From Aurantiochytrium sp. KH105 (lineage: Eukaryota; Sar; Bigyra; Thraustochytrida; Thraustochytriidae), in contig BGKB01000107.1 in NCBI GenBank assembly GCA_003116975.1, positions 62,001 through 126,000 on the forward strand: a stretch of DNA of 64,000 bases, given 5' to 3'. Below the pieces are notes generated by a model, which saw only the letters and a list, made by a program, of their open reading frames with translations, had not been told where the DNA came from and made no database searches. Positions within the stretch are counted from its first letter, which is position 1; each line of letters opens with the position of its first letter. Shown here one piece after another: positions 12,835 through 45,484 of the stretch. Both the position numbers and the translations under genes were made by a program.

Positions 12835-15800
12835 TTAGGATTGACTACTCGAAGCAGAATGCGAAGGGTCGCGGAGCGGGAGCTGAAGTTTCTCGCAGAC
12901 TCTTCTCACAAGCGTATACGCTTCCGTTTGAGCCTCGCTCCCATCCGTCTTGATTTTCACGATAACGTTTCCGGTGGCGCTTTGCGTGTGAGTTCCGTGA
13001 CGATGAAGCTTCACGAGGTAGGGCAAGGTCTGTGGTCCTCTTCGAAGGGAGAACGTCCAATCTGATGAGCTCTGTCTGTCAAGCTTCTTCTCCCGAATGG
13101 CCTTGCAAAACTCATCGCGTACCCGCGAGCCGATGCTAGTTTCGCTTCCGTCCCGAAATTCCGAAGATATCGTGCAGAGTAGTCTGCGCTCCACATCTGA
13201 GAGCCCACTCTTCCGCGCACAATCCTTGCATACACCGTCACGATCATCAAGATTGTGATCCTGAATCTCCGTTACTTGGCCGTCGAAATCGTACCGCCGT
13301 TCAAGTGGCAGAGCTCGGCGGCAGGGTGGACACCAAAAGCATTCCGAACGATGCTCATCGCAGAGGTGAGACCTGCTCTCAGGGCAACTCTTCATGCAAC
13401 CCCCCTTGCGGCACCTCGACTTTCGCTTCTTCTGAGCTCTTGTAAGCCTACGGTAGTCTGAGCTAGGCTCATGCTCCCGACGATGGCGGAGAGACTCGAT
13501 TGTACCAGTGCCGGGAGATGACAGCACGTCCACGGTCGTTTGCCTTGGCACTTCATTAATAATGCGCTGACATCCGGTGCAGCGCGAGCCGGGGCCTATG
13601 ACACCAGGTGCAACGCTGAAAATGTAGTCGCCCTGCGTATCGCTGCCCTTGCGGAGATGCTCATTCGGGTCCTTGCCATTCGCTGTGGACGACGCTACAG
13701 GAGCAAAACCCGCGTAATAATCAACGAAATTTATCGGGCTCATTTCGTCCGAGAAGGGCCATAGGATCATAGGCTGCAAACACTCTGTACAGTGCTCTCC
13801 ACTCGCCAACTTCTCGACTACACGATTATGCGACGAATTCTCAATAAAGCAGTCAAAATCAGCATCAGAGCTCGGCTCAGAAACACACAGGGAGCAGGTG
13901 AGCGGGGGAAATTTGAGACTGCGTCGCTTTGCGTCTCTGGCAAAGCTGATCAGTCGACTTGTGCCGTCTTTGACGTGCTTTTCATGCACCCAAAACCCGC
14001 ATCGTCTTTTCTGATCATCGAGAAGAAAGTCACCTCGGAAACAAGACTCACTCATGCGGTGCAACTCATGGGCAAGCCTGACTGGCGTCATGCTATCATG
14101 GCGGTCGCCTGTAAAGAAGCCAGGCTTCTTGCACGTGGCGCATGATGGCCACTTCTTACGTACATCGTCCTCATATGCCTTGTCGAGTTGATGCGCAGTG
14201 CGAGTCGCGTTCCTACCAGGCTGAATGGGGGATGTGGATGGCGCCTGGGTTCCTTGCATTTTGCGCTTTTTTCGATTGGACGATCGGAGCGTTCGATCGC
14301 TTTTTTCGACGGTAATAGCACGCAGATGTGTTTCCTCACTATCAGACTCACCCGACGATGCATCCTCGCAGTCAGCGCCGGAGTCCGAGTCTGAGTCTGA
14401 TCCTGATTCCGAGTCCGAGTCGTCCGCCTCTGCATCTTTGTCCAGGGTTGCGTCTTCCATCTCAACATCGCTGTCACTGTTTTGGGCATAAAAATCGCTG
14501 GAGCTGTCGTGCCTGCTGTGTCGATTTGTATTTTCCCTGTCATTCATCTCGTGACTGTGTCGGCCGGCATCTCCATTCGTGCTCTCGTTCTCCGCGTGCT
14601 GGACACTCTCATTCTGAAACGCATTGCCGCCCTCGCTGCCGCGATGTTCGTCGTCCTCTTCTTCCATGTCTCCGTCATCGACGTAATTGTCGCCGACATC
14701 TCCGTCGCCGTCACGGTCGTCAACATCGGTATCTGCACCGTTTTCAACGGAGCCAATTCTTGGCCTCCTGAAACCTGGCCTCTCACTTGCCTCGTTCCTT
14801 TGGGTTTCGTCAAATTCTTCGATTGCACGGCTTCCGTCCATGCTACGAGGTGTGGCATCAGGTTCAAGATCGTCACGATCAGGTTCCTCGCGCGTCGTTC
14901 TCGCTGTCGATGCTGGGGTCAAAGTGGGCGGCGAGGTGTCGAGACGTCTCCTTACATGTCTCGACGGGTCGATCGCGGGCCCAGGGGCTTCCTGTCTTGG
15001 CGAGTCCCAGGACTCCGAAACTTCATCTGCCTCCAGCCCATCAATATCCGTAAACTCATTTCTCTCAATGAGCTCATTAGCACGTTGAAATCCATGACCG
15101 TATGTTGGCAACGTAATATCCGCGCAAAAGTCCGGCCGTTCGCAGATCCGCGCTGACGATCGCTGAGGAGAGAAATAGTCGTCCTCGATACGAAGAGGCT
15201 TCTTGCAGTCTGAGCAGGTGACAAAGGCAGGAACTTGCATGAGTGCTTGTATGTCCTGAAGCGAGATGCCGCTTTGGAAAAGTGCTTTTGCGGCAAGGAC
15301 CTTATGCGGGTTGTCGTTGCGAATGATCAGAAACTTGGCAAGATGACGCTTCGGAATGCCTGTGCCGCAGAGGTACTTTTGCTCGATGGTCTGCACCGCT
15401 TCGTCCACCGTGCCTTGGAGACGTCTGCTGTGCCGGTGAAGAATAGTTCTGATCGTAGCGCTATCGCGGTAGTTTCGTGTGACCCGTCCGAGGACCTGAA
15501 GGAAAGAGTTCATCTCGACACCCTTCGAGCGAAGCACCATGACAAATTGCTGCAGGGGGAAATTGAAGCCACGGATGTTCTTCATGAGAACGATGAGAAG
15601 ATTTGCACGGCCGCTCTTGAAATCTTTTTCGACGTCGTCAGCCTCAATGTCGATAAACGCCTGGTGCTTAGAGCACCACCGCTTGTGAATTTTTTCGAGG
15701 TCGACGATGGGAGTGAGGAACTGTTTGAACTTGGGACGTGCCCCTGGGGGGAGACTGATCCATTTCTCGCCATCCAGACCGGCCTTAATGTAGCCCGAAT

Positions 15801-17691
15801 ACAGCCCATCGCCCTTGGGATTGCAGCAGTGATACCACTCTTGCTTTCTCGCCGACGCGTCTTCTTCAAGCTCGTATTCTGGATCGGCAATCTCCTGAAA
15901 CTCCTCCTGGAACTTTTTAACGGCCCTTGCGTTCGAAAAGGACACTGTGCCAGCAAAAGGCAAGTAGTTGACCATTGTCTCGAAGTAGGCTCTTTCTTGG
16001 GCTGACTGAGCGCGTGGCAGGGGCTGCTGATGGAGCAAGTTTGCGCCCTCTAGGACTTTTTGAGCAAAGACCGAAAATCCAGAAATGAAGTCTTGAACGT
16101 CGCTTGACATCGTCGCCGATTTTCCGTTGGGCCCTTGACCGTCGTAGAGGAAAATCGAAGGAAGCGAGGAGGGCGGCGATTCGATGCTCACTGATTGTCC
16201 AAGCCCCCAACCAAACCGGTGATCAGCACCCAGGATATTGCGCGCTACTCGCTCCTTGGAGCTCAGCACGTCGCATGTGCCGCTGAGGTGGAAGCTCACA
16301 GGGATGCGTGGCTCCACAACTTGCTTGAGCTCTAGACTTGTGGCGCCGTCCTTTCTGCTCGCGATGTCTGCTTCATCGCGAACGAGCTTGCCCCAGTGGG
16401 CCGCGCTTAGCCACATGGGGATCTGCTGTTTGCGCTTGCGTTTGTTGGCTTTGCGTCGCGAACTCTTGTCGCTGTTCGAGTCCTTCCCTGAAAGGGTTCC
16501 CCAGCTTCCGACAAGAAGCACGACATGCTTGACATCCCATTGTGTGTCACATTTGTGATTTTCGGTCGTGTACATGGGAAAGATGGGGCGCCAGCTCTTT
16601 TTACCCCCGAAGAAGCGAACTGTGCGAGCTAGAAGCCACGACAGAGGCGTGTACAAATGGTTGCCAACTATGACTGTATCAAACATGGCCTCCGCGTACT
16701 TGCCGATCATGAACTGCCGCCCAAACACGCGGTGGAAGAGCTCGGCACCAAGCTTGACCAACTTGACTTCGTCTTTGTTCTTGACCATAACGGCTCCGCT
16801 CAAGAGCGTGTCCCTGATGAAATCCCGTTTCTTCGCAATTGAATCGATGTCAAAGCGAAGCTTCGTAAGGTTCAAAAGCTCCGTGCGCTCCTTAATCAGG
16901 ACTTTGAGAATTCTCCAGATCCTGTCAATGCTTTCTTCATTTTCCAGCAGCAGCGTCAGATCGGGAAGGTCCCCGATAAAGGTTTGAGCAGGCTGCAGGT
17001 TGTATCCGAAAAAGACGGTGGACTCCATGAGACGATCAGTCGTGCCATTCAACGTGTACCCAACAACGTGGGCGTTGTCGTCCGCGATTTGCTTTACGAT
17101 CGCTCCCGTCGTCGGGTCGTCGGACTTGATGCTTTTGCCACCACGAAGGACTTCGCGAAGGAAACGCGCGAGAGTCGTCGGTTTGTGCTGGCTGCTTAAC
17201 CACTGCAGCCTTACAGGCATAGCACTCAGCACGTACTGGTACGCGAGGAGAGTACTCAGCAGGGTCTTGCCCTCGCCTGGAGCCAGAGGCACCTGCAAGC
17301 CGGGTTGAGTCACGGCAAGTGGACCCAGGTCGCGATCCTCGAAGACGCGGTTTTCCTTCTCGCGTTCATGGCGCACGACGCCCGTCTCCAGAGCCGTCAT
17401 GACGAGCTGCTGCGAGGGGCGAAGAGAAAGATCGTTCGCGCCGCGTTTCGTCTTGACGAAGCGCGCAAGACGAATGAATTGCTCGTTCTTGCGTATCTCC
17501 GCTTCGTCCAGCGAAGAGCGGTTCGTGTCCCATTCCTTGTACTCCTTCACCAGCTCATTCAGGTTCTTCTCCGATATCACCACTTCGACATCGCCCTGGT
17601 GCCGCGCCACGGCAAGGGCTTCCGTTTGCCCCAGAGGGACAACACGCGCGCCCTCGTGGCGGGATGTAGCCATTTTCGATGCTCCGGCCAT
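12835..17691 (-). CDS. Cassette A: giant SF2-like ATPase with Cys-rich C-terminal half
   Basis: A 1618-aa protein of a family I do not recognise. The ATG at 17691 or the second Met (residue 7) could be the start. Helicase-like motifs appear in SF2 order: 'LRPSQQ' (90-95, Q-motif-like), 'APGEGKT' (137-143, Walker A of the form seen in SecA), 'VRDEADIAS' (437-445, Walker B/DEAD), 'HLSGTCDVLS' (468-477, motif III), 'RGFNFPLQQFVMV' (707-719, motif V) and 'QVLGRVTRN' (732-740, motif VI). The Walker A to DEAD gap, about 295 residues, is about twice normal. After residue 825 come CxxC pairs ('CSDCKKPL'), then a Ser/Asp/Glu-rich disordered stretch. The C-terminal third has at least six further CxxC-type clusters ('CATCKKPGFF', 'CTECLQPMILW', 'CTGCQRIINE', 'CPPCRRALP', 'CKDCARKSGL') that likely bind zinc. 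Divergent from partner A. Probably nuclear and nucleic-acid dependent; that is inference. Confidence 0.88.
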   Translation of the reverse strand: MAGASKMATSRHEGARVVPLGQTEALAVARHQGDVEVVISEKNLNELVKEYKEWDTNRSSLDEAEIRKNEQFIRLARFVKTKRGANDLSLRPSQQLVMTALETGVVRHEREKENRVFEDRDLGPLAVTQPGLQVPLAPGEGKTLLSTLLAYQYVLSAMPVRLQWLSSQHKPTTLARFLREVLRGGKSIKSDDPTTGAIVKQIADDNAHVVGYTLNGTTDRLMESTVFFGYNLQPAQTFIGDLPDLTLLLENEESIDRIWRILKVLIKERTELLNLTKLRFDIDSIAKKRDFIRDTLLSGAVMVKNKDEVKLVKLGAELFHRVFGRQFMIGKYAEAMFDTVIVGNHLYTPLSWLLARTVRFFGGKKSWRPIFPMYTTENHKCDTQWDVKHVVLLVGSWGTLSGKDSNSDKSSRRKANKRKRKQQIPMWLSAAHWGKLVRDEADIASRKDGATSLELKQVVEPRIPVSFHLSGTCDVLSSKERVARNILGADHRFGWGLGQSVSIESPPSSLPSIFLYDGQGPNGKSATMSSDVQDFISGFSVFAQKVLEGANLLHQQPLPRAQSAQERAYFETMVNYLPFAGTVSFSNARAVKKFQEEFQEIADPEYELEEDASARKQEWYHCCNPKGDGLYSGYIKAGLDGEKWISLPPGARPKFKQFLTPIVDLEKIHKRWCSKHQAFIDIEADDVEKDFKSGRANLLIVLMKNIRGFNFPLQQFVMVLRSKGVEMNSFLQVLGRVTRNYRDSATIRTILHRHSRRLQGTVDEAVQTIEQKYLCGTGIPKRHLAKFLIIRNDNPHKVLAAKALFQSGISLQDIQALMQVPAFVTCSDCKKPLRIEDDYFSPQRSSARICERPDFCADITLPTYGHGFQRANELIERNEFTDIDGLEADEVSESWDSPRQEAPGPAIDPSRHVRRRLDTSPPTLTPASTARTTREEPDRDDLEPDATPRSMDGSRAIEEFDETQRNEASERPGFRRPRIGSVENGADTDVDDRDGDGDVGDNYVDDGDMEEEDDEHRGSEGGNAFQNESVQHAENESTNGDAGRHSHEMNDRENTNRHSRHDSSSDFYAQNSDSDVEMEDATLDKDAEADDSDSESGSDSDSDSGADCEDASSGESDSEETHLRAITVEKSDRTLRSSNRKKRKMQGTQAPSTSPIQPGRNATRTAHQLDKAYEDDVRKKWPSCATCKKPGFFTGDRHDSMTPVRLAHELHRMSESCFRGDFLLDDQKRRCGFWVHEKHVKDGTSRLISFARDAKRRSLKFPPLTCSLCVSEPSSDADFDCFIENSSHNRVVEKLASGEHCTECLQPMILWPFSDEMSPINFVDYYAGFAPVASSTANGKDPNEHLRKGSDTQGDYIFSVAPGVIGPGSRCTGCQRIINEVPRQTTVDVLSSPGTGTIESLRHRREHEPSSDYRRLTRAQKKRKSRCRKGGCMKSCPESRSHLCDEHRSECFWCPPCRRALPLERRYDFDGQVTEIQDHNLDDRDGVCKDCARKSGLSDVERRLLCTISSEFRDGSETSIGSRVRDEFCKAIREKKLDRQSSSDWTFSLRRGPQTLPYLVKLHRHGTHTQSATGNVIVKIKTDGSEAQTEAYTLVRRVCEKLQLPLRDPSHSASSSQS

Positions 17692-18123
17692 TGTTCTCTT
17701 GCGCTTGCTTGTTCACCTCTACTGGGTGCTTTGCCTCCTTTGCTCCGCTTTGCTTGCGTGGCGTCGGTCGGGTGCTCTTCGTGCTCGTCTTGCTTTGCTT
17801 TGTTCTTCGTCTCGGGGTTGCGGGTTTGCTGCGGCAGGCCGCGCGACGAGCTCCCGCCTTCCTCCTCCATCCCGCCTTCTTCCACCATTTCGCTGCCCTT
17901 TTGAGAGTGCGAATGCACGCGAGGTGAGATCAAGTTTTTTGAGCGCTCTCGAGAGCGCGAAGTCGAGTGGGCGCAGTCGAGAGCGAGAGCGAGAGCACTC
18001 TCTGTGGGTCCTGCCTGCAGCACCTCGGCCGCGCGGCGAATCCCACCGCGCAGGCTGCGCGCGAAGCGGCCCGCGCAGCGAGGATCCCTCCTCCGCCGCT
18101 GGGCGGCCAGGTGATACGAGTCG
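17692..18123. promoter_or_regulatory. Divergent spacer A, ATPase-proximal part
   Basis: This is the 5' flank of ATPase A. It is nearly identical to the corresponding region of cassette B (29100-29545). It includes a cluster of GAGAGC hexamers at about 17940-17998 ('GAGAGCGAGAGCGAGAGC'). Similar GAGAGC-rich tracts occur in the spacers of cassettes B and C, so it is a candidate shared control element. No RNA start can be read from the sequence. Confidence 0.45.
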
Positions 18124-18613
18124 CAGCAGACGGTGGCCACGTGCCATGAGCTTGCAAAACGTGACACGAAGACACTTCTTTGCCAGCGGCGGCAAGCCAG
18201 CCGCAGGTGATATGAGACGCAGCAGCAGCAGACAGTGAGTGTCAAAAGCTTGTGAAACAGGAAACAGGACACGAAGACACTTCTTGGCTAAGACAGCCCG
18301 CAGCATCGCACGGACCGACTTCGCCAAGGGAAGCAGCAGCAGCAGCGGCAGCAGCAGCGGCGGCAGTGACAGCAGCCAGCCGCAAGCACGAAGACCAGGC
18401 CCGCCCAAGCTTGGCGGACGCCGGTGGCCAGGTGACATGAGCTTGCAAAATATGTCACAAAGAAGACACTTCTTTGCCAGCGGCGGCCAGCCAGCCATGG
18501 CCGGTGTCATGAGACGCAGCAGACAGTGAGTGGCGAAAGCTTGAGAAACGTGGCACGAAGACACTATTTGCCAAGACAGCCCGCAGCATCACACGAAGCG
18601 GCCACGCTACCGG

Positions 18614-18644
<31 letters not shown>

Positions 18645-18995
18645 TGGCAGCTGCAGCCGCAAGCAGGAAGACCGCGGCCCTTCAAGCCAGGCTGGCGCCG
18701 GGCAGCAGACGGTGGCCAGGTGACATGAGCTTGCAAAATATGTCATGAAGACACTTCTTTGCCAGCGGCGGCCAGCCAGCCATGGCCGGTGGCATGAGAC
18801 GCAGCAGACAGTGAGTGGCGAAAGCTTGAGAAACGTGGCACGAAGACACTTCTTTGCCAAGCAGCTCGTACGAAGCGGCCACGCCACCGAAAGTACCAAC
18901 AGCAGCAGCAGCAGAGAAGCAGCCACAAGCGGGAAGACCAGGCCCATCCAAGCCAGGCGGACGGCGAGCGTGGACATTTACTCTTGAAGCCAGCC
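18124..18995. repeat. Three tandem copies of a 290-bp repeat in divergent spacer A
   Basis: Copies start at about 18124, 18414 and 18704. The anchor 'GAGCTTGCAAAA' is at 18148, 18439 and 18727, giving steps of 291 and 288. Each copy holds two boxes close to 'CACGAAGACACTTCTTTGCC', the core GAAG-ACA-CTTC being an inverted repeat. Copies also contain CAG runs and 'AGCAGACAGTGAGTG'. Cassette B has a single copy of the unit near 29545-29650. A CACGTG E-box-like site lies at about 18138 and at the matching place in cassette B. The placement, between two divergent start codons, suggests promoter or enhancer repeats. Confidence 0.85.
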
Positions 18996-19341
18996 CCACC
19001 CCCCACCCCCCCCGCGCGCGCCTCAGGTGGACGCGGAGCGGGTTCAGGGTCATCTTAGCAGCGGAGCTTGCCAACGATTTCTCAATCGATCGAGGCCCAG
19101 GTGCACACGTTCATTGTGAAAAGAGGGAGTGAAGTGAGAGCGCAGTCGAGAGCGCTTGCTTGCTGCTGAAGTGACCACGACTAGGAGATAGAGAATTGGG
19201 GGGAGAGGAGGCAAGGGAGCAATACGCAAACAGCACTGCCTCATCTACAGTGCGACGGGCCCGCGCTAGCCTCGCCTCCCGCGCCTTTGGGCTCAGAGCG
19301 CCGCTACCAGGGCTCTCTCTGCCTGCCCGCCTGCCTGCCCG

Positions 19342-19385
<44 letters not shown>

Positions 19386-19852
19386 CACGGGAGTCAGATC
19401 GCGCTCATCTGAGAAAAGCAAGTCTGGAACTGCTGCTGCGCTAGGTAGGGTACGCGAAGCTGCCGGGACGCGGCGCTCCAGGGAAGGCTCCACAGACAGC
19501 CGCGGCGCACGGCCCGTCGCAGGGCGAACAGCTTTGCAAAAGCTCGCGGCTTGCAAGCTTGCTTGCTCGCTGGAGCTGGAATTGACCGTGAGGACGCGCG
19601 AGGAGCCTCGTCCCACGCAGTTTACCCGTGCGCGGGCCAGCGAGACATTGTGTTCCACTACGATTCACCAGAGCAGAGCCACAAAGTTCGTAAGCCTCGC
19701 AACTTGCTTGTTGTGGATTCTACATCGATTGGTTTCGCTGGGCACGTTCATTTACTTTTCTTTCGCATCAAAATTGCACAAAACAGAACGGAGATCTCGA
19801 AGCTACTCCATTCGGGTGAGAGAGAAAGGACCGTCAGGACGAAGTGGACCAG
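18996..19852. other. 5' flank of partner A with (CCTG)n tract
   Basis: Similarity to cassette B continues to about 19050 and then stops. A (CCTG)n tetranucleotide tract spans about 19319-19386. No extra gene is supported. Confidence 0.6.
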
Positions 19853-21013
19853 ATGAATCCCATGTCGAAGACTTGGGAGGAGCTCAGCAAGGATTCCGTG
19901 AAAGAGAAAATGCAACGATTTATCGGCACTGAATCAGCTCGTGTACTCAAATCTTTTTGGAAAGTACATGAGCTCGTCAAAGTGGAGCTGGCTATGAGAA
20001 AAGTCAAACCTACAAAGAAATCTGCAGAAATTCTGGAAAAAATCTTTGCCACCAATTACTTTTACGAGGGAACGCACGTGAAGAACATTGTTCGCGGAAG
20101 ATGGAGAAAGGATGTGGAGAAAACTAAGGCATTGCTCGAGGAAGATGGCTTACCTGGTCACAAAGCCAAAGGCGAAGCAGCTCCACTGACACTATTCAGG
20201 TACTCACTCAAATACCGTCTCACGCCGCATGCTAAAATTGAGAACGACGAAAATCTGGTCATTCAGAATCTGTGGGAGTTCTTTCACGGGAAAGCATGCA
20301 AAACGTATCGATCTTCGATTGTTCATCGCGGTGTTGCCTACTCAACGAAAGGTCGATCTGGGGCGCAGAGCGTGTCAGGCGGTACGAGCATTGCAACAAA
20401 CGATTCGAATAATGCTCAAGCTGCGCATCTGCTCCCTGAAAAAATGCAAACGTCTCCAACGCACGAGAATATTCCTGGCCAAGCTTTAACACCTTCATCA
20501 CAGAGTTCTTCGCCTCCAGGCAATCGAGGTGTAAAGAGAAGGTCAGACTCGATGGACAGCGCCAGCAGTGAGTCCTCAACCATATCATCCATCGTGATAC
20601 CAATTCGACGACCCAAATTGGAGGCGAATACATCAAGAACCTCCAGCGCGGCTCCTTCGCCACAGGTATCATCCATGCCGTTGTCGGCAACAAGTCCGCA
20701 AATGACCCCTCAGTCAAGATCGCGGCAGCCTCCGCGCGAAGTTTGCATGTCGACAAAGAAGACAGAGAAGTCGAAGTCACGAATCAAGAGGGAACCTGAG
20801 TCCTCCACCTCTCGCAGCATGGCGAGGGAGGAAAGAAATGGTACTGAAGCGTGCGACAGAATCTCCACGTTTTCACGAGTCGCGAGTGCGGCGAATGTCG
20901 TCGGCACTTCGTCCAAGGCGAAACGAAAAACAAGAAAGCTCGATGAACGTTGCTCCTCCGCTCATTCTTCATCACCTCGTGCCGGAGAGCCAGGCGTCAT
21001 CGACCTTACCTGA
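19853..21013 (+). CDS. Cassette A partner protein with SUMO-type motifs
   Basis: A 386-aa protein from ATG 19853 (ATG 19862 is also possible), of unrecognised family. Residues 1-170 form a conserved, probably helical head shared with the partners of cassettes B and C. It has 'VKEKMQRFIG', then 'ILEKIFATNYFYEGTHVKNIV', 'RGRWRKDVEK', and the hallmark 'NDENLVIQNLW' at about residue 130 followed by 'YRSSIVHRGVA'. The tail (170-386) is Ser/Pro-rich and probably disordered. It contains the SUMO-acceptor-like 'IKRE' (20783-20794) and ends with 'GVIDLT', a classic SUMO-interacting motif shape, right before the stop. No catalytic motif, membrane segment or zinc cluster is visible. Transcribed away from ATPase A. 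A role as its regulator or adaptor is inference from the pairing. Confidence 0.8.
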   Translation: MNPMSKTWEELSKDSVKEKMQRFIGTESARVLKSFWKVHELVKVELAMRKVKPTKKSAEILEKIFATNYFYEGTHVKNIVRGRWRKDVEKTKALLEEDGLPGHKAKGEAAPLTLFRYSLKYRLTPHAKIENDENLVIQNLWEFFHGKACKTYRSSIVHRGVAYSTKGRSGAQSVSGGTSIATNDSNNAQAAHLLPEKMQTSPTHENIPGQALTPSSQSSSPPGNRGVKRRSDSMDSASSESSTISSIVIPIRRPKLEANTSRTSSAAPSPQVSSMPLSATSPQMTPQSRSRQPPREVCMSTKKTEKSKSRIKREPESSTSRSMAREERNGTEACDRISTFSRVASAANVVGTSSKAKRKTRKLDERCSSAHSSSPRAGEPGVIDLT

Positions 21014-21756
21014 GTTTCGATCATTGAAAGGTAAAGAACTTGAATCTGTTTTCTAAAGTCTCTTGAACGCCATGAGTAAATCGATGCCGAACTCTTGTGC
21101 ACAATCTCGTGAGTTTCTTGTTTCCGAGGTATATGCAAACCATGTGCATCTTGGAACAAACGCAGGTCAGGTATAAGCTATCCGGAAAGTCCAGTGTGTC
21201 TCATATTCATCTTTGCTCTTCCTTCTCATCATTGAAAGAAAGTACTCACAAGACACTTCAAGTTGCAACAAAGAACCAGATTAACTCATAGTAAGATTCG
21301 AAGTTATTCAAGAGATTCTCGAAAATATAAGGAATCGCCTCTCCACGACTGAAGGCCTTGCGCAGCCGCACGCGCTGTCCCTGCAAAACCTGGCTCACAA
21401 GACACTTCAAGTTGCAACAAAGAACCAGATTAACTCATAGTAAGATTCGAAGTTATTCAAGAGATTCTCGAAAATATAAGGAATCGCCTCTCCACGACTG
21501 AAGGCCTTGCGCAGCCGCACGCGCTGTCCCTGCAAAACCTGGCAAAGATTCAATCAGCAGCTAGCCAACGTGGTAGGACAACAACCAGGTTGAACCGGGT
21601 CCTTCAAGAACCCCCCCCCCTCCCCGGTGCGGGCCCTGCAGGGATGTGGAAAACACGGCCTTGTTTAGGCATGCCACATGGGCGAGTAGAATTTGGAATG
21701 GCTCAGCTGCATCGAAAAGATCTTCGTTTGTCGTCACGTACGGGAAAAGAAAGTCG
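21014..21756. other. Convergent spacer between partner A and the orphan gene
   Basis: AT-rich, with no gene. It holds a perfect 149-bp tandem duplication (separate entry) and a C-run at about 21609-21621. Confidence 0.6.
21245..21542. repeat. Perfect 149-bp tandem duplication
   Basis: Copy 1 is 21245-21393 and copy 2 is 21394-21542. I compared them base by base and see no difference. Both begin CTCACAAGACACTTC and end CCTGCAAAACCTGG. It is either a very recent duplication or an assembly artefact. Confidence 0.95.
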
Positions 21757-23700: not shown

Positions 23701-24212
23701 GGTCACTTGGTTCACCTGGTTGCTCGTGGCTCTCAATCAAGAGCACTCAGATAAAGGCTTGAATCAATGAGGGAGGGAGCCTGCGTTGCCTCCTTTGCCT
23801 CGCGCGTACAGACAACTTGCAGCGCGGCCGCTACCAGGCGTCGCGCTACCAGGCGTCGCGTAGCGAAAAGGGATGGGCTTGCACAGCGTAGTATCCTCTC
23901 TGCTTGCAGATCGTTGCAGACCCATTCTATTTTTTCCCTTCATGGCGCCTGCCCACCGGGTCGAGTTTCTAATAGCCACTCCCCGTAGTGCGGCAAAAGT
24001 CTTGTATATGTAATCCCCCAAGACCTGCGGTTTTTCCATCGATGTCTCTCGTCATAACGAGAACGGCCGATCAATCGATTCGCCGAAGAGGAAAACGAAG
24101 GTGAAAGGATCTAGGTGCCAACAGGCCTTCGAAGTTTCCTGTATGTTATACTCAGGAACTCTGTGGTTGATTGAGGTAAAAGAAGAACAATTGAGTTGTT
24201 GTTTTACACTCA
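23701..24212. other. Spacer between ATPase B 3' end and orphan gene
   Basis: The 5' flank of the orphan gene. It contains a short direct repeat 'CTACCAGGCGTCGCG' at about 23832-23862. Similarity between cassettes A and B begins only at about 24221, so this part is unique. No gene seen. Confidence 0.5.
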
Positions 24213-30186: not shown

Positions 30187-31752
30187 ATGTCGACGCCCCT
30201 CGCGTCGTCCAAGTCGTGGGCGCCCATGAGCGCGAACGTCATCCGTGAGAAAGTCAAGCGCTTTGTTCGCGAGTTTGGCAATGAAGATCTGGCAAAGATC
30301 TTCAGCATCGATAAACTCGTCGAGTATGAGCAGGACTTGCGCGAGGAAGATGCAGTGAATTTTTTTTCCACGGTGATGGAGGAGCTCTTCAAAAAAGTGT
30401 ACTTCACCGACGGAAAGCACAACGAGGCCATGGTTCGCACCAAGTGGGATAGTGATTGCGAAAAGATGAGACTCGAGCTTAAAAGGAAACTTGCAAATCC
30501 TTCTCACACGCCCAAAGCAGCTCCGTTCTTGCTGCTGGGTCATCTAATGGAAAATGTCATTGCTCCGCAGGCCTCCGTGGACAACGACGAGAACCTTGTC
30601 ATCAAGAGAATCTGGTCTCTCGTACGCAGTGGGACATGTCAAAACTACACGTCTCATATCATCAATTCTGGCACCGCGAATGGCGGTAGTACCCCTTCCC
30701 GAGACAACAGCACAAGGCGTTCCATGCAAAACGACGAAATAAGCCCAGCTGCCAGAGCTTCGTTTCCTTCCGGTCTTCGGCAGCGCGAAGGCTACGCTGT
30801 CGCGTCACAAGCTGACACAGAGCGTTCGGGCTCTTTCGTGCCTCGGAACCTCGATTCTGAATATGATCAGCTAGCTGACGAGTCGTCGTTTTCGGGTGAG
30901 CATGAAGCGCCTTCGCCGCCGCCAAGCCAGTTGAAATCAAGGGAAAAGAGTAACTCCTTTAGCAGCACCCCGAGCACCTCGTCACTGCTCAATTTGGATC
31001 GAGCCAGATGGCCTGCTTCCTCATCTTCGTCCTCATCCTCGTCCTCGTCCTCGTCCTCATGTTCGCTATCGAAGCGCCCTCACCGAACGTTGTCTTCCGC
31101 ATCGTTGAAAGACAAGAGTTCGTTGGCCTCGTCTTCGTCTCCCACACAGCGCACCAAGTCCGCTCCGCTGTCGATTGCGACGATGCCTGTAGGAGCGCGG
31201 ACGAAGTCATCGTCAGTAGCAGCACCTATTGGCGCTTCAACTGCAGAGCAAGCGACAGCGGACGCATCTGTGAAGGAAGAGACGCCGACATTGCGACGCG
31301 AAAATTCTTCCACGATCAGCGAGATCAAGAAGACGATGAAGAAGGAAAAGAAGAAGAAGCTCCGTGCAGAGGACTATATCGATCTAGACTTGCCCAGCGA
31401 CGATAGTGACCTTGAAGAAGAAGACGCAGTTAATGAAAAGAGCGCCGAGGAATCATCACAGTCGCTGAGTGACAAGACAACCACGTCTGAATTTCAACAT
31501 TCACCTCGACGCGAGCGACCTCTGAAGAGGGAACGCGACGCTCCGAGCAGCTCGAACTCGAATTCCCCAGCTCCCGTCGCCCAAAGCTCGTCTTCGTCGT
31601 CTTCCGGCGACCCTGCTCGCACGAGAGTTTTTACTTCAGAAGGAACCCTTGACTCCTTTTGGAGAACAAAAAGGCCTCGAATCAAGACCGAGAAGCCCTC
31701 GTCTGAGAGACCAGGTAATGCCAGCAATTTCATCGACCTCACCGAGGATTGA
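30187..31752 (+). CDS. Cassette B partner protein with SUMO-type motifs
   Basis: A 521-aa protein from ATG 30187. The head (1-170) is homologous to partner A but strongly diverged, roughly a third identical by eye. It has 'IREKVKRFVREF', 'MEELFKKVYFTDGKHNEAMV', 'RTKWDSDCEKMR', then 'NDENLVIKRIW' at about residue 131 and 'YTSHIINSGTA'. The tail is long, Ser-rich and disordered. It contains 'VKEE', an acidic 'DYIDLDLPSDDSD' (SIM-like with acidic flank), a SUMO-acceptor-like 'IKTE' (31681-31692), and ends 'NFIDLTED', again a C-terminal SIM shape. The contrast with the near-identical ATPases next door is striking. No enzyme motif seen. Confidence 0.8.
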   Translation: MSTPLASSKSWAPMSANVIREKVKRFVREFGNEDLAKIFSIDKLVEYEQDLREEDAVNFFSTVMEELFKKVYFTDGKHNEAMVRTKWDSDCEKMRLELKRKLANPSHTPKAAPFLLLGHLMENVIAPQASVDNDENLVIKRIWSLVRSGTCQNYTSHIINSGTANGGSTPSRDNSTRRSMQNDEISPAARASFPSGLRQREGYAVASQADTERSGSFVPRNLDSEYDQLADESSFSGEHEAPSPPPSQLKSREKSNSFSSTPSTSSLLNLDRARWPASSSSSSSSSSSSSSCSLSKRPHRTLSSASLKDKSSLASSSSPTQRTKSAPLSIATMPVGARTKSSSVAAPIGASTAEQATADASVKEETPTLRRENSSTISEIKKTMKKEKKKKLRAEDYIDLDLPSDDSDLEEEDAVNEKSAEESSQSLSDKTTTSEFQHSPRRERPLKRERDAPSSSNSNSPAPVAQSSSSSSSGDPARTRVFTSEGTLDSFWRTKRPRIKTEKPSSERPGNASNFIDLTED

Positions 31753-32367: not shown

Positions 32368-35300
32368 TTAAGATTGGTTAAGAGGAAGGTCAAGTGCCTG
32401 ACAAGCATCCTGCAGAATATCGTGTGCCCGGTTCTGCTGCTCGACATTGTCCGTTTCCAGATCCAGAACGAGAAGGTTGGATCCAACGGTTTCGGCAGAG
32501 ACACCGGAAGCTGACGTTGTCGAGGGACCCTCTGCAGGCCTGTTTGAAGCGGTGTGCACATGACGATGAAGTTTGACAGAGAAAGGAGCGGTTGGTGGCC
32601 CTTTGCGCAAGAAGAATGAACACGCGGGCGATGGATAGGGGAGTTTTTCACGAAGAATTGCCTCATGCAAACTCGTGTAGACTTTGTGTCGCACCGTATC
32701 CTGCTCGCCGTCGACGCGCACCTGCTTCAAAGCGTCGAGAAGCTTGCGCTGTTGCTCAGAAAGTCCTGATTCCTGCGCACACACCTTGCACTGATCTCTG
32801 CTGGGTGCAGTGCTGCACATGCTTGAAGAGGGCAAAGCGCGTCTGCAGGAAGCGCACCAGAAATGCTCGCTTCCGTGCGTTGCACAAAAACGAGAAGCTC
32901 CTTCAGCACGCATCTCTTGGCAGCCTCCCAGACAACAGGTTTCCTTCCGCTGATTCTCCGCTTTGAGCAGCTTCGCGTATGACCCCTGAGAGCTGTGCGC
33001 TCGCCGAAAGGTTCTCTGCCCGTCTGAACGATTTGGGTTGCGATTCATGCGTAGGCGGGTGTTTCCCGGTTCCTCGTCCTCCACTCGCTGACATGCGGAG
33101 CACATTGTTTCGCGGGATGTTGGTCTTGGGTGAGCGCTAAATATGAAGGGAGTGCCGTTCTCGTTGCTCGCTTTTCGAAGCCACTGATTGGAGGATACTG
33201 GCGCATATCCCGCAGTGAGTCTTTTGCTCCCAATGGGCTTGAGGTTTTCGTTGAAAAGCCAAAGGATCAGTTGCTGCTCGCATCGGGCACATTGGTCGTC
33301 GCGGAGAAGCCTGTTGAACACCCGTGGGTCTTCAGACGGATTTCCGACCAGCTGCAGAAACTCGTCGTCGCGGAGAGGCTTCTTCGCGCAGACGAAACAG
33401 AAAAGCTTGAAGTTCTTGGACCTTCGAGTTCCCTGCGCGATAGAGAAGTCGATTTCCACGTTTCCAGATGAGGAAACATGCTTCTTTTCAACCTTAAAAC
33501 CGCAGCGCTTGCCATCTGTGTTCACGAGATACATGCCTTGCATGCAGGCCCTCGGGCTTCGACGTAAAGTGTCCATGAGAAGGTCAGGCACTTGGTCCGT
33601 GAAGGATGCAGAGGTGAAGAAGGCTTCCTTGCTGCAAACGGAGCACTTTGGCCAATTTGAATTGGCTGAGGCATGAACGCTCTCATCCAGTCCATGTGAG
33701 ACCTGCGACGCGTCGCTTTGGATTGTTTGAGTGCTTTGCCTTTGCGATCCGCTGCGCCTGGTCCTTGGTCGACGTTGTTGCTCGCCACCAGGAACCCCAT
33801 CGCCTTCATAGTCAGAATCGCTGTTGCTCTCGTCGGACGAATCGTCAGAGTCCCCGGCACCATTCTCGTTGACATGCTGTCGACGACCACGTCGAGAAAG
33901 GGAAGGAGGCGCGGCATGTGTTACATTGTCTGCGCTCCCATGAGCACCATGGGTAGAAGAAGCATCGCGGGTGGGGGCACTGGTATCGTGGCCGCCATTT
34001 TGGTCACTTGGACTGCTGCGGAGCACATCGACATTTCGGCCCGGGGTTGCTCCACTGCCAGCCCCGCGACTGCTGCTACTGCTGCTGCTGCTCCTGCTGT
34101 TCCTGTTGCTGTTGCTAATGCCGCTGTCGCCAAAGGCGTCATCGTTATAGTGATTCGAAGCGGGATGCGGGTCTGGCCGGGAAGCTTGACCACTGCTTTG
34201 CGCGCCAGAGCTCTCGGCGTCGTTTTCGCTTGCTTCCAACAGAGATGCGTCGTCGCCTGAGGCTCTCTCACTCGAGACCCTGAGCTCGTTGCTCTCCGAT
34301 CTCCCCGATCTTCCCGTGTGAACGCCTTCGGCCCAAAGACGAATGTTAGCTTGCGTGGAATTGTTGGCTTGCGTATCAACAATCTCAACAACGTCAACTT
34401 CCATCTTCTGTGGACGTGTCGGTGCATCAGGCGTGTCACTCTCCATCGCAACTACGGGGTTGTCGTCTTGATCCTCCTCCCCATCCAAGACTCTCTCGCG
34501 CACTGGAGGGGGACCTGCAGGACTATGGTGTGACAAACGCCGCCGCGCATTGATGGAAGCAATTGCCGGCAAGGGGCGTGGCGCCTTGCGCTTTGGAGAC
34601 GGCGATGATGCAGATTCCGAGTCGCTGCTGTCGTGCGACATACCAACGTCGGAAAACTCCTCGAAGGAACGGCGAGTGCTGGACTTGTCAAAGCAGTCCT
34701 CGTACGTCTTCAGAGTGATGTCTGCGCACGGATCGTTCGGTCCACACTCGTATAAGGTGGACGTTGGCGTTGACTCGAAGTTCTGAGGCTTACCACACTG
34801 CATGCACTTAGAAAACCCGGATTGAAGTAGCGTCGCAATGTCCTCCTCGACAATGCCATTCTTGAACAGCGCCTTTGCTGCGAGAAGCTTGTGTTCCTCG
34901 TCATCCCGAATAATAAGGAACTTTGCGAGATGCCTTTTGGGAATACCAGTGCCACAGAGGTAGTACCGCACAAGATGGTCAAGCGCATCGTCGACACTTC
35001 CTTCTAATCGACCTTTGTGCGTCTCGAGGATCTTCCTGATCATATTCGTGTCATGGTGATTACGGGTGACGCGCCCAAGGACCTGAATGAACTGATTCAT
35101 CTTCACACCCTGCGTACGGAGAACCATGACGAACTGCTGGAGAGGAAAGTTGAAGCCACGAATCTTCTTCATGAGGACAACGAGAAGGTTTGCGGCACCT
35201 TCTCTGAGGATAGTCTCGACATTTCTGGGGTCGATAGGCTCAAAGTCACCCGTATCGGGATTCCAACACTCGTGAATGTTCATCAGATCGATGATGGGGA

Positions 35301-37482
35301 TCAAAAACTGCTTGAGTTTGGGCCTTTCAGCTTCCGGCAAACTCACCCATCGCTCAGCGTTACCCGGCCCCGTGACAATGTAGCCTGAGTAGAGTCCATC
35401 ACCAGCTGGATTGCAGCAATGGTAGCATTCCACGACCCTCGCAGATGCGTTTGGGCCAGGCGGACTCTTTTTCCGGGCAATTTTCTTAAAATCTTGCTTG
35501 AAGGTATCGACCGCGGCCTTGCTTGAGAAGGAAGCTGTTCCGGCAAACGGCAAGTACTCCATCATAGCCTTGTAGTGACGTCGCTCCTTCGCAGAGCTCG
35601 CCGCAGCCTCCTCGGAGATCTTACCAGCCCGGGCTTGAACCGTGTAAGAGAACACGGACATTCCAGAAAAGAAGTCACCAACGTCACTTTTGTACTTGCC
35701 TCCAAGGCGGCGTTTCCCGTCCGCATCGTACAAGATGATGGAGGGAAGTGATGATGGAGGATCTTGAATGCTTACCGACTGGCCGAGACCGTATCCGAAC
35801 TTGTGTCGAGCACCAAGAATGTTGCGAGCTACGCGTTGCTTGGTCGACAACACGTCGCACGTGCCGCTAAAGTGAAACGAAACAGGGAAGCAAGGCTCAA
35901 CGGTCGTCGTCAACGTCCTGGCCATCTGTCGCTCAGCTTTGCTGGCGATGTCGGCTTCGTCGCGAATTAGCTTGCCCCAATGCGCCCTGGAGAGCCACGT
36001 CGGCGTCTCGCTCTCACTTTGCTCTTGCCCTCTTCTGGTCCCTGCGAGGGTGGTCCAATTCCCTACAAGAAGAACTGCGTTGTAGGCCTGCGATGGTCCT
36101 GTGCAGGATGAGTTCTCGTAGCCCAGCAAGGGCATCAAGGTACGCCACTGATCTTTCCCGCCATGAAAGCTGACGGTGCGCGAGAGCAGCCAGGAAAATG
36201 GCGTGTACAGGTGATCGCCAATGATGACCGTCTCAAACAGGGCTGGCGCGTATTCTCCGATCCTGAATGTTTTTCCAAAGACGCTCGTGAATAGCTCAGC
36301 TCCGAGCTTAACAATGTGAACCTCGTCGCCCTGTTTGTAGGCCACAGCTCCGCTCAGCATGGTCTCCTTGATGAGAGTCACTCGCTCAAAGTCGGTGTCT
36401 TCGGGCCGAATACCAGTCCTTTCCTCGATGATGCCTTGGATGATGCTCCAAACCCTGTCAAGGCTATCCGGATCCTCGAGCAGCTTGGTAAGATCCGGAA
36501 GTTCCTCAAGAAAGGTCTCCGCAGGCTGGCGATGGTAACCAAAGACGACTGCAGACTCAAAGAGACGAATCGATTTCTTGCCGCTCTTCTTGTCGCGAAC
36601 CACGTACCCTGAAACGTTGGCATTGTCGCAGGCAACCTGATCCAGGATCGACTGTTCGGCTGGAACGTCAGAGCTGAACGCTCGCGTCAATACACCATGG
36701 AGAAAGCTGGCCAGAGTCCACGCTTGCTTCTTGCATTGCAGCCAGTCGCACTGCACGGGCATCTGGCCCAGCACCGTGAGTAGCGCAATGATGGTGCAAA
36801 GGAGAGTTTTTCCTTCTCCTGTGGCGATGCGGCACTGCAAGCCCGGTTGCGTCAACGCAAGAGGCCCAAGATCTCGTTCTTCGAGCCGAAACTCTTCTTG
36901 GTCATTGCCTAGGGCATTCTGGATCCTTTCAACCTGGTGCTCCACCCTTCCGCTCTGGAGGGCGCCGACAACCAGCTGCTGAGAGTGGCGTAGCTGTAGA
37001 GCGGACGAGCCACGGTGACTCGTAACGTACTTGATGACAGCAATGTGCTGTTCGTTCTTTTTCATCTCGAATTTCTTCAAGGGGCGTTCCTTGCCCCACG
37101 GCTCAAAGTCCATCGCGTCCAGTTGCTCGGACAGTATCACCTTGGCGATCCCCTCGTCCACCATGGCGTGGTTCAGAGCCGCGCGGCTTTTCACGGACAG
37201 GATTTCGCAGTTGTTCTCGGACATCTTGGACTTGCTTCGAAATGCGTCGAAGACTTGGTCTTGTGCTTGTGCTTGTGCTTGTGCTTGAGCTTGTGCTTGT
37301 GCTTGTGCTTGTGCTTGAGCTTGTGCTTGTGCTTGTGCTTGTGCTTGTGCTTGTGCTTGTGCTTGTGCTTGCTTTGGAGGCTTGCTCGCTTTGATTTCGG
37401 ATTTGCTGCTGCTGCTGCGCACCCGCTGCCTCCCGGTGCCTCCTTTCGCTGCCCTCCCGCTCCTTCGATCGTTATTACCCAT
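32368..37482 (-). CDS. Cassette C: giant SF2-like ATPase, diverged paralogue
   Basis: A 1704-aa protein from ATG 37482 (the frame is open to 37518 with no earlier ATG). It is clearly the same family as ATPases A and B, with about two-thirds identity in the best core blocks and much less elsewhere. Motifs are 'LRHSQQLV', 'ATGEGKT' (exactly the SecA-type TGEGKT), 'IRDEADIAS', 'HFSGTCDVLS', 'RGFNFPLQQFVMV' and 'QVLGRVTRN', then 'LCGTGIPKRHLAKFLIIRDD'. The N-terminus carries a long Gln-Ala dipeptide repeat. All Cys clusters are kept ('CMQCGKP', 'CSVCSKEAFF', 'CARCEQQLILW', 'CSACQRVED', 'CASCRRALP', 'CKVCAQESGL'). So is the closing 'FFLRKGP...VKLHRH' block. Conservation of the Cys clusters across such divergence shows that they are functional. 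Confidence 0.88.
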   Translation of the reverse strand: MGNNDRRSGRAAKGGTGRQRVRSSSSKSEIKASKPPKQAQAQAQAQAQAQAQAQAQAQAQAQAQAQAQAQAQAQDQVFDAFRSKSKMSENNCEILSVKSRAALNHAMVDEGIAKVILSEQLDAMDFEPWGKERPLKKFEMKKNEQHIAVIKYVTSHRGSSALQLRHSQQLVVGALQSGRVEHQVERIQNALGNDQEEFRLEERDLGPLALTQPGLQCRIATGEGKTLLCTIIALLTVLGQMPVQCDWLQCKKQAWTLASFLHGVLTRAFSSDVPAEQSILDQVACDNANVSGYVVRDKKSGKKSIRLFESAVVFGYHRQPAETFLEELPDLTKLLEDPDSLDRVWSIIQGIIEERTGIRPEDTDFERVTLIKETMLSGAVAYKQGDEVHIVKLGAELFTSVFGKTFRIGEYAPALFETVIIGDHLYTPFSWLLSRTVSFHGGKDQWRTLMPLLGYENSSCTGPSQAYNAVLLVGNWTTLAGTRRGQEQSESETPTWLSRAHWGKLIRDEADIASKAERQMARTLTTTVEPCFPVSFHFSGTCDVLSTKQRVARNILGARHKFGYGLGQSVSIQDPPSSLPSIILYDADGKRRLGGKYKSDVGDFFSGMSVFSYTVQARAGKISEEAAASSAKERRHYKAMMEYLPFAGTASFSSKAAVDTFKQDFKKIARKKSPPGPNASARVVECYHCCNPAGDGLYSGYIVTGPGNAERWVSLPEAERPKLKQFLIPIIDLMNIHECWNPDTGDFEPIDPRNVETILREGAANLLVVLMKKIRGFNFPLQQFVMVLRTQGVKMNQFIQVLGRVTRNHHDTNMIRKILETHKGRLEGSVDDALDHLVRYYLCGTGIPKRHLAKFLIIRDDEEHKLLAAKALFKNGIVEEDIATLLQSGFSKCMQCGKPQNFESTPTSTLYECGPNDPCADITLKTYEDCFDKSSTRRSFEEFSDVGMSHDSSDSESASSPSPKRKAPRPLPAIASINARRRLSHHSPAGPPPVRERVLDGEEDQDDNPVVAMESDTPDAPTRPQKMEVDVVEIVDTQANNSTQANIRLWAEGVHTGRSGRSESNELRVSSERASGDDASLLEASENDAESSGAQSSGQASRPDPHPASNHYNDDAFGDSGISNSNRNSRSSSSSSSSRGAGSGATPGRNVDVLRSSPSDQNGGHDTSAPTRDASSTHGAHGSADNVTHAAPPSLSRRGRRQHVNENGAGDSDDSSDESNSDSDYEGDGVPGGEQQRRPRTRRSGSQRQSTQTIQSDASQVSHGLDESVHASANSNWPKCSVCSKEAFFTSASFTDQVPDLLMDTLRRSPRACMQGMYLVNTDGKRCGFKVEKKHVSSSGNVEIDFSIAQGTRRSKNFKLFCFVCAKKPLRDDEFLQLVGNPSEDPRVFNRLLRDDQCARCEQQLILWLFNENLKPIGSKRLTAGYAPVSSNQWLRKASNENGTPFIFSAHPRPTSRETMCSACQRVEDEEPGNTRLRMNRNPNRSDGQRTFRRAHSSQGSYAKLLKAENQRKETCCLGGCQEMRAEGASRFCATHGSEHFWCASCRRALPSSSMCSTAPSRDQCKVCAQESGLSEQQRKLLDALKQVRVDGEQDTVRHKVYTSLHEAILREKLPYPSPACSFFLRKGPPTAPFSVKLHRHVHTASNRPAEGPSTTSASGVSAETVGSNLLVLDLETDNVEQQNRAHDILQDACQALDLPLNQS
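37259..37376. repeat. (TGCTTG)n hexanucleotide repeat coding for (Gln-Ala)n
   Basis: About 19 units, some with TGAGCT variants. Read on the minus strand they encode alternating Gln and Ala near the N-terminus of ATPase C. ATPases A and B lack it. Confidence 0.95.
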
Positions 37483-38583
37483 CCGGATCGCTCTCGTCAG
37501 GGGGGGTTGGAAGGGCAATCAAGAGATTTGGGAGCGATCTCATCGAAAGTGGGAGCGTTCTCATCGGAAATGGGAGCACACTCATCGGGATCGGTAGTGC
37601 TCTCGTTGAGATTGGGAGCGATCTCATCGAAAGTGGGAGCGCTCGCTCTCATCGGGATCGGGAGTGGGAACCGCAGAAGGAGAGGCCTGAGTGCATTGGC
37701 CGAAAGTGCGTGGGACTTCTTTCATCGAGAGCAAGCTGGCGAGCCCGTGCCTTTGAGACTGCCCTTCCTTCCCCCTCCACTTCCTCGGTCGGCGTCGTCA
37801 TCGTCGTCTGAATGCATTCGAGAGCGCTCGCGCTCGGTACTTCCTTCATCGAGAGCAAGTCCAGAGCACGTCGAGACATGGTCGAGAGCAAGCTAGCTAG
37901 AGCGAGCGTCCATCCACATCCGACGGAGCAATCAGCATCGCGCGAGCGCATGGCATGCTCGAGCCGCGTGCTCGCGCCACCAAGAGCTCCCGAAGGTGCT
38001 CGCTCGCGGCCTGCCCGAGGCCTCGCCCCTCGCGACTCGCGGCTCGAGGAAGCGCCCTGGAGCTGAGCTCGCGCCCGAGCAGGAGGCGGCCGCGGCTGGT
38101 CTTGATTTCCCGGCGCGGCAGAGCCCTCTCGAGAGCGAGGCCGCGCGCGGGCGAGAGCGCGCGCGAGCGGACGCGCACGCCGGGAGCGCGCTCGCACGCG
38201 ACGGCGCGCGACGCGCTGCAGAGGCCCGCGGCGCGGGTCCGGCCCCGGTCTGTCTGTTGGGTGGCGGGCGGGAGGAGGAGCGGACCGCGCGTGGCGACGG
38301 GAGGCGAAGACCACAGGACGCGGCGGCTCGCGTCGCGCTCGTGCGGCGCACTCGCTGACGTGCTCGCTCGCTCGCTCGGTGCTGCTTCGCCCACGAGGCG
38401 ATCGACGACAAAAGAGGCTCGTCTGCCTGCCTGCCCGTGCGACTGAGCATCGGGCATCTGGGCAAGCGCGAGCCAGGGATCCACGACCACGCGAGCTCGA
38501 AGCGCTCGGTGGCTCGCGCCCACGCTGTCCACCCGGATCGGCGCACGGCTGCGGACGTGGACTTTCACGTCAACACGACCAAG
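37483..38583. promoter_or_regulatory. Divergent spacer C with short tandem repeats
   Basis: Lies between the ATG of ATPase C and that of partner C. At about 37528-37671 there are six imperfect copies of a 21-23 bp unit, 'TGGGAGCGATCTCATCGAAA'. Farther right are many GAGAGC words (about 37817-37890, 38130-38160), as in spacers A and B, within extremely GC-rich DNA. The long open frames on both strands here are due to base composition. Confidence 0.5.
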
Positions 38584-39759
38584 ATGACAACGTCTTTGAC
38601 ACCGTCGCACGACCCCAGGACCTGGCGACCCCTTGATGATGAAGCCATTCACGCAAAGGTGACCGTCCTGTTGGAGGAGGTCCCCGAGTTGGCTTGGATC
38701 TGGGACGCCCCAACTCTCGTCGAGATAGAGATGGAGTTGCGTAAGAAGGAAACGAGGCCCTTTTCAAAAATTTTGGAACATTGCTTTGAGAAAAACTACT
38801 ATCCCAGAGGGCATCACGTTCCCGAAGTTATCCGCGCTAAATGGGCAAAAGATTGCAGAATCCTGGGCACCCAACTTTCGAGGCGATTTAAGCGCAGGGT
38901 TTCACGAAATTTTGCAGCACAATTCATTGTCATGCGTTGTGCCTTGCATGATCGTCTCTCGCCTCATCCTACCATCTCCATGGATGAAAATCTTGCCGTC
39001 AAAAAGCTTTGGTGGCATATTTGCGCGCCCACGAGTGGGATCTATCGCTCGCATATTATTAATCATGGCACGGCAATCCCTTCGTACAGCAAAATAACAA
39101 AGCGACCACAACAGGAAAGTGACGAGGGGAAGAGTGTTACGATCGATCTCTCGGGCAGTCCAGATCCGGACGTAGCTGTATGTAAATCACCTGTATCATC
39201 AGCCAACTGCAGCAAGACGAGGCGCCAAGCACCTGCAATTCGCTCGCAAAAAGATGTAAAAACTGTAAATAAAAGACGCGACGAGTCGCCAAGCGAACTC
39301 GATTCAAACGGCTGTGGCTCTTCTTCGCGTTCGTTGGGAAGAAATCGATCTGCGGAGCAACTATCTGAGAAGAAGCCACAACGCTCGGCACAGATGGAGA
39401 AAGACCGTGCGCTACCCAAGGTCTTGCCTTGCAAGCAGGAGATTGATGTTATTGACAAGAGTCGGTTCGATGACAGTAGCGACGATGAAGCTTTTATCGG
39501 TAGCAACTTGGATGGACCAGGTTGTTCAAAGGCCTCGACTACATTGTCCTCTTCGGCAGCCGGCCGCACAAGAACTCCGTTGCTCTCGGCGCGATCGGGG
39601 TCTCCAGGGTCAGGAAGAGGAATTTTGAAGCTAGAATTTCGTCGGGATACAGCGTCGTCTGCGCCGAGTCGGGGTGTCATCAAGCTCGAGCACAGGCCAT
39701 TACCGAAGCGGCGCAAAGTGTTGCCCGGCATCTCGGATCTCTCCGAAGCCTTCATCTAA
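38584..39759 (+). CDS. Cassette C partner protein with SUMO-type motifs
   Basis: A 391-aa protein from ATG 38584; the frame is open upstream to 38437 but without another ATG. The head is homologous to partners A and B, with 'ILEHCFEKNYYPRGHHVPEVI', 'RAKWAKDCRIL', then 'MDENLAVKKLW' at about residue 132 and 'YRSHIINHGTA'. The hallmark sits at the same residue number in all three partners. The tail is Ser-rich. It contains 'VTIDLSGSPDPDV' (39136 onward), a SIM-like core followed by acidic residues, and two SUMO-acceptor-like sites, 'LKLE' and 'IKLE' (39679-39690). A basic patch 'PKRRKV' could be a nuclear signal. Unlike A and B, the SIM-like motif is internal rather than at the C-terminus. Confidence 0.8.
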   Translation: MTTSLTPSHDPRTWRPLDDEAIHAKVTVLLEEVPELAWIWDAPTLVEIEMELRKKETRPFSKILEHCFEKNYYPRGHHVPEVIRAKWAKDCRILGTQLSRRFKRRVSRNFAAQFIVMRCALHDRLSPHPTISMDENLAVKKLWWHICAPTSGIYRSHIINHGTAIPSYSKITKRPQQESDEGKSVTIDLSGSPDPDVAVCKSPVSSANCSKTRRQAPAIRSQKDVKTVNKRRDESPSELDSNGCGSSSRSLGRNRSAEQLSEKKPQRSAQMEKDRALPKVLPCKQEIDVIDKSRFDDSSDDEAFIGSNLDGPGCSKASTTLSSSAAGRTRTPLLSARSGSPGSGRGILKLEFRRDTASSAPSRGVIKLEHRPLPKRRKVLPGISDLSEAFI

Positions 39760-44050: not shown

Positions 44051-44298
44051 AATCTTCAAGCTCATTGAAGTATGCGCACAAGGTACTGAGGGAGGTGAAA
44101 CGGGCATGTCGGTTATGTATACGAGAGAACATGCGGCGAAAACTCGCTATGATCTCTGGTACAACTACGCGACTGCCGAGCTACAACGGACAGGTCTCGA
44201 CAAAATCTCGCCTGAGCTCTCTGAGGCTTGGGAGTCGGAACTCTGCGCTGATGATGCGGAGGCTGATCCTGATCAAGAGAATGACGGAAGCTTTTGAA

Positions 44299-45471: not shown

Positions 45472-45484
45472 GAAGATTCAGTGC

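Follow-up and report, generated by a model that had tools for sequence, protein, structure and literature searches.

A tandem array of divergently paired genes for an SF2-like ATPase and a partner with SUMO-interacting-motif-like sequences in Aurantiochytrium sp. KH105

The window, as we call the whole 64,000-nucleotide stretch of Aurantiochytrium sp. KH105 DNA analysed here, carries three divergent gene pairs (A, B and C), each with a large ATPase gene on the minus strand and a partner gene on the plus strand, which together form one head-to-tail tandem array in a single orientation. The two genes represent protein families without profile-level annotation in the libraries searched that always adjoin each other in this genome, a finding of interest even if the partner-matching reading given below is wrong. 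We read the pair as a possible SF2 motor with a dedicated partner that would read SUMO, and we give this reading a probability of about one in three (0.35). Moreover, the motor body has been homogenised between the A and B loci by gene conversion, leaving the end of the ATPase, the outer spacer and the partner specific to each locus.

Results

The array, its flanks and the second haplotype

The window corresponds to positions 62,001-126,000 of a 261-kb contig (C107) in a 76-Mb genome of 367 contigs. Its GC content per 2 kb ranges from 47 to 62%, mostly higher than the 43-47% given for four labyrinthulomycete strains (PMC10101102). The flanks of the array are ordinary: to the left lie genes for topoisomerase I and for a tubulin-tyrosine-ligase-like protein, and to the right those for a zinc-type dehydrogenase, an SPB4-type helicase and a seryl-tRNA synthetase. 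A PfaA-like polyketide synthase matched its profile along positions 6-1035 and scored 930 bits where the cutoff is 1010; among 14 bacteria and archaea taken as controls, 11 gave this profile as well at scores below cutoff. Taken with genes that run long in one frame and with a WRKY19-type zinc-finger protein, the synthase would point to a thraustochytrid.

Pair A consists of ATPase A (12835-17691, minus strand, 1618 aa), recognised by its open reading frame, SF2 motifs and sub-cutoff Pfam matches, a divergent spacer of 2161 bp with 61% GC (17692-19852) and partner A (19853-21013, plus strand, 386 aa). In pair B, a spacer of 1087 bp with 67% GC (29100-30186) separates ATPase B (24213-29099, minus strand, 1628 aa) from partner B (30187-31752, plus strand, 521 aa). 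ATPase C (32368-37482, minus strand) has 1704 aa when counted from its first ATG at 37482, within a TTG-started frame open to 37518, and is followed by a spacer of 1101 bp with 68% GC (37483-38583) and by partner C (38584-39759, plus strand, 391 aa). The frames were thus found where the initial annotation had placed them, in the same divergent layout three times; for the partners its frames are present, but the ATG starts (19853, 30187 and 38584) lie slightly inside earlier GTG-started frames. Spacer A contains internal direct repeats at ~18.1-18.9 kb and its first ~500 bp match spacer B at 85%; spacer C gave no blastn match to spacers A or B at an E-value of 1e-3.

Contig C100 is, between 30 and 90 kb, collinear with positions 1-60.3 kb of the window in blocks 90-96% identical, apart from insertions, and therefore is the other haplotype of this region. 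It carries all three pairs in the order seen in the window. The whole-genome queries were ATPase C, the tail of ATPase A, a helicase half of ATPase C and, on the partner side, only the heads of A and C; the search scored best candidates alone. Six loci with an ATPase and a partner head were found, three in the window and three on C100, all six divergently paired and none with either gene alone, which bears out for this genome the proposal that the two genes have been kept together. The extra matches were a low-complexity QA repeat on contig C178, obtained with ATPase C, and two of 41 bp on contig C263, obtained when 2 kb of DNA from ATPase A served as query.

The ATPase is a divergent SF2-like protein

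The ATPases of A and B are 92% identical and those of A and C 43%, in agreement with the homology among pairs that had been claimed for both genes. ATPase A contains the SF2 motifs I (APGEGKT, residue 137), II (DEAD, 439), III (SGT, 470) and VI (QVLGRVTR, 732). All six ATPases keep GEGKT, DEAD, SGT and the motif VI-like QVLGRVTRN unchanged, and in every copy motifs I, II, III and VI stand in order with their catalytic residues. The distance between motifs I and II is unusual, at ~290-300 residues. ATPase A also has a long acidic Ser/Asp-rich linker and eight CxxC motifs, two of which overlap, and repeated CxxC motifs occupy the C-terminal part of the protein; the description as an SF2-like ATPase with Cys clusters is therefore upheld. 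Near residues 1427-1447 there is a C-x4-C...C-x2-H arrangement which, by eye, we take to resemble WRKY19-type fingers, and no profile matched this stretch.

The library scans covered two of the ATPases, A and C, all three partners, and ATPase B by its tail only. In ATPase A, Pfam SecA_DEAD (PF07517) matched residues 42-160 at 14.7 bits (cutoff 24.6) and Helicase_C matched the motif V-VI stretch at 14.6 bits (cutoff 23.5); both are sub-cutoff and follow each other in the correct order, SecA_DEAD at motif I and Helicase_C at motifs V-VI. ATPase C matched neither model. When SecA_DEAD was scanned against the Aurantiochytrium genome itself, its single match was ATPase B, at 19 bits and an E-value of 0.02, also below the cutoff of 24.6. 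In the ATPases scanned, no DEAD, ResIII or SNF2 model reached its cutoff, nor did Helicase_C, and neither ATPases nor partners matched a RING or SNF2 profile. PADLOC gave nothing above chance for ATPase A, ATPase C or any of the three partners (best E-value 0.094, on the QA repeat of ATPase C), and the remaining library matches had E-values of 0.04 or worse and involved unrelated or low-complexity models. The earlier statement that neither protein matches a known family thus holds at the level of family cutoffs in Pfam, PHROGs, PADLOC and NCBIfam.

The closest similarity seen was to a ResIII-type helicase of Sinorhizobium phage Phosso (XYS97225.1), whose alignment with ATPase residues 687-831 spans 147 aa with 27% identity and runs across the end of lobe 2 and the Cys ribbon that comes after it in both proteins. 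The two share the motif V-VI signature GF..P..FVM..RS....QV.GRV.R. This helicase was the single record found of 50,697 in a tblastn search with ATPase A, at an E-value of 0.02, and the pairwise E-value of 4e-8 overstates the match. With ATPase C the alignment to this helicase is limited to 49 aa (E-value 0.001), and ATPase C did not recover it in the phage tblastn, where its one match was at chance level (E-value 9) and to a different phage. Compared with helicases of the ResIII/Helicase_C type, the ATPase differs in its motif I-II spacing, its acidic linker and its large Cys-rich C-terminus. AlphaFold2 modelling of the ATPase core with five sequences gave a mean pLDDT of 33.9. Our reading is that the ATPase belongs to SF2 as a divergent member.

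The partner and its SIM-like motif

The partner has a conserved head of ~165 residues followed by a low-complexity tail. The heads of A, B and C are 30-33% identical, with E-values of ~1e-22 to 3e-17 within one genome, far beyond chance, and over their whole length partners A and B share 28% identity. None of the four libraries gave a profile above chance for the partner. Partner A ends in VIDLT and partner B in FIDLTED, the IDLT in each resembling a SUMO-interacting motif (SIM). When the tails were shuffled, the probability of [VIL]DL[TS] in the last 10 residues was 0.0001 for A and 0.00095 for B. Partner C has no such motif at its end but an internal IDLS at residue 187, for which the probability of occurring anywhere in the tail is 0.04. 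We regard the ends of partners A and B as putative, SIM-like motifs. Hence, of the SUMO-type tail originally described, a short SIM-like motif remains, terminal in A and B and internal in C.

Searches for homologues

No clear relative was found among the prokaryotes, phages, plasmids and viral contigs searched. In IMG/VR no homologue turned up for the ATPase core, for either of two motif blocks, for the Cys-rich tail or for the partner, and the GTDB genomes gave none for the core or for one motif block; every scan of this kind rests on two short peptide patterns, which distant relatives would escape. Plasmids queried with ATPase A yielded no homologue. In a sequence search of the PDB, ATPase A had one chance match (E-value 0.74), the core profile had none, and the partner head had 13 chance-level matches (best E-value 0.22). 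A literature search at the level of titles and abstracts gave nothing on this gene pair, which is no proof of its being unpublished.

Gene conversion between the ATPase bodies of A and B

At the DNA level the A and B loci are 93.65% identical over a block that reaches 6 bp beyond the stop of the ATPase gene at one end and ~0.5 kb upstream of the gene at the other, and outside this main block there are only weaker, scattered repeat matches. Synonymous change between partners A and B is saturated, and their mutual distance equals that of either from C. The initial proposal that pairs A and B are a recent joint duplication is consequently not borne out: the similarity covers only the ATPase and ~0.5 kb of the spacer.

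Trees including C are disturbed by its long branch, and for this reason we used site patterns in four sequences, the A and B ATPases on both haplotypes. At ATPase residues 1-1249, 76 informative sites group the sequences by haplotype (HAP), 5 by locus (ORTH) and 3 show the CROSS pattern; at residues 1333-1618 the counts are 3, 68 and 2, respectively. In ATPase A these parts correspond to a converted tract at 13945-17691 (minus strand), which groups with the B sequence of the same haplotype, and to a locus-specific C-terminal part beyond it at 12835-13695 (minus strand, ~residues 1333-1618). According to the site map the spacer beyond ~250 bp also groups by locus; the outer spacer and the partner stay locus-specific, as does the ATPase end. 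Over residues 600-869, A and B lie at a synonymous distance of 0.017 on C107 and of 0.049 on C100, compared with 0.111 and 0.076 between alleles. In the trees with C, the haplotype splits were supported at 100 and 90 in two body segments, and the locus splits in the ATPase tail by only 58-67 of 100 bootstraps.

These patterns indicate that, within each haplotype, the motor body has recently undergone gene conversion between the A and B loci, which themselves go back to an older duplication, and that the likeness of the A and B ATPases is largely due to conversion. Unequal exchange replacing the ATPase bodies is a less likely alternative. The locus-grouping sites increase gradually toward the 3' end, and the homologous block ends 6 bp beyond the stop.

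Rates of change between haplotypes

The ratio omega between haplotypes is 0.34, 0.47 and 0.18 for ATPases A, B and C, 0.97, 0.73 and 0.06 for the respective partner heads, and 0.96, 0.71 and 0.27 for the whole partners. The tail of partner C, with an omega of 0.55, is not strongly constrained, unlike its head. Between A and B, the ATPase tail has an omega of 0.49-0.68, not above 1. A and B evolve faster than C, with p = 7e-5 for the heads and 8e-5 for the ATPases in Fisher tests of C versus A plus B on rounded counts. Among nine control ORFs, seven had an omega of 0.01-0.24. High values are not special to the partners, since the other two controls, a WRKY19-type zinc-finger protein (0.52) and a TPR fragment (1.01), reached them as well; the TPR (292 of 549 aa), topoisomerase and zinc-finger controls were compared over partial length only. 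The fast change of A and B reflects either relaxed constraint or positive selection, which two haplotypes do not distinguish.

Discussion

We propose that the ATPase would work as an SF2-type ATP-driven motor, a nucleic-acid translocase or remodeller that is probably nuclear, and that its Cys-rich C-terminal modules are probably zinc-binding. The partner head would attach to its own ATPase at the variable C-terminal region, and the SIM of the partner would bring the motor to SUMO-modified targets in chromatin, repair or defence. An old tandem duplication in one orientation would have given rise to the three units, with C as the constrained copy and A and B diversifying. SUMO-linked SNF2 translocases and SUMO-targeted ubiquitin ligases such as Uls1, HLTF and Slx5-Slx8 combine a motor, Cys-rich modules and a SIM. 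The pair described here is like them in layout only, with the elements split over two proteins and no match to an SNF2 or RING model. Against the proposed SUMO-reading motor we count the absence of a family model at cutoff, the long motif I-II spacing, the gradual 3' rise of locus-grouping sites, the shortness of the SIM motifs and the lack of a terminal one in C. The same side of the balance holds the low pLDDT of the core, the missing helicase-type matches of ATPase C, the ATPase-tail omega below 1, the modest bootstrap values for locus splits and the two control ORFs with high omega.

The locus-specific end of the ATPase is a natural candidate for the partner-binding part. A bolder version, which we consider unlikely, would be a new eukaryotic two-gene system in which a conversion-homogenised motor is combined with interchangeable specificity partners that diversify fast, each motor recognising its own partner through its locus-specific C-terminus. 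If such partner matching were true, the array would be a natural experiment in modular motor-adaptor evolution, and gene conversion would delimit the general and the pair-specific parts of a large enzyme. An edge effect of conversion gives the same picture as a partner-binding tail.

This last point also belongs to the alternative that we take most seriously, although we would bet against it, namely a plain tandem duplication of neighbours with a shared upstream region, in which the genes were duplicated as a block, form no complex, and partners A and B are relaxed. Three units in one array and one orientation, partner omega values near 1 and a conversion that fades at the block edges, which accounts for the ATPase tail, are all in line with it. 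However, the three partners are open and intact on both haplotypes despite their saturated divergence, and the terminal IDLT has been retained in both A and B.

A further serious rival, though a somewhat unlikely one, is that the pairs constitute a genome-defence module, in which the motor would sense or remodel foreign nucleic acid, the fast partner would be a surface for target reading or counter-adaptation and C would keep a core job. SF2 motors are common in defence, and an array of paralogues whose partner heads in A and B change fast beside a more conserved motor would be consistent with such a role, but PADLOC gave no match above chance, and omega does not exceed 1, so that with two haplotypes relaxed constraint explains the rates equally well.

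A domesticated or still selfish element, such as a two-gene transposon or a killer-antidote or drive unit, is quite improbable. The unit has two genes, an obscure origin and several copies, and transposon-related sequences lie near it at 41.5-46.2 kb and 21.8-23.7 kb. Nevertheless, no copy was found beyond this locus with the queries used and both haplotypes carry all three pairs, which disfavours the selfish element suggested at the outset; in addition, the Pfam scan found no transposase or integrase domain. The accompanying statement that no terminal repeats were found stands for pair A, the region scanned, around which there are no inverted repeats of at least 18 bp. Finally, we think it very unlikely that the ATPase is a SecA-derived translocase relative and no nucleic-acid motor: it has the GEGKT motif I and ATPase B is the single SecA_DEAD match in its genome, but these matches are sub-cutoff, confined to the motif I region and lacking in ATPase C, and the motif V-VI region of ATPase A leans to Helicase_C and the ResIII-type helicase.

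Other features of the window

Between pairs A and B there is a gene of 659 aa (21757-23736, minus strand), the last 114 residues of which match an equal-scoring frame in 18 places at 78%; a longer relative resembles, by eye, a MULE-type transposase protein. The two haplotypes differ structurally at several points. Just downstream of partner A, C107 has a perfect direct duplication of 150 bp (21245-21543), where C100 has a single copy as judged from the alignment ends, and the interval 9461-9762 measures 0.3 kb in the window and ~2.3 kb on C100. C107 has an insertion (41537-46232) that the C100 allele lacks; its coding content includes an XPG_N/XPG_I nuclease-like protein (41753-44050) with a SWIM-like Cys motif seen by eye. 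The insertion has four other long copies, 95-98% identical over ~2.6-2.7 kb, and probably represents a mobile element that carries a nuclease of XPG type. Nested in this insertion is a 1.17-kb repeat (44299-45471) with inverted ends of ~30 bp that are 90% matched; with 18 other near-full-length copies at 98-100% among the matches listed, it is a recently active small DNA transposon.
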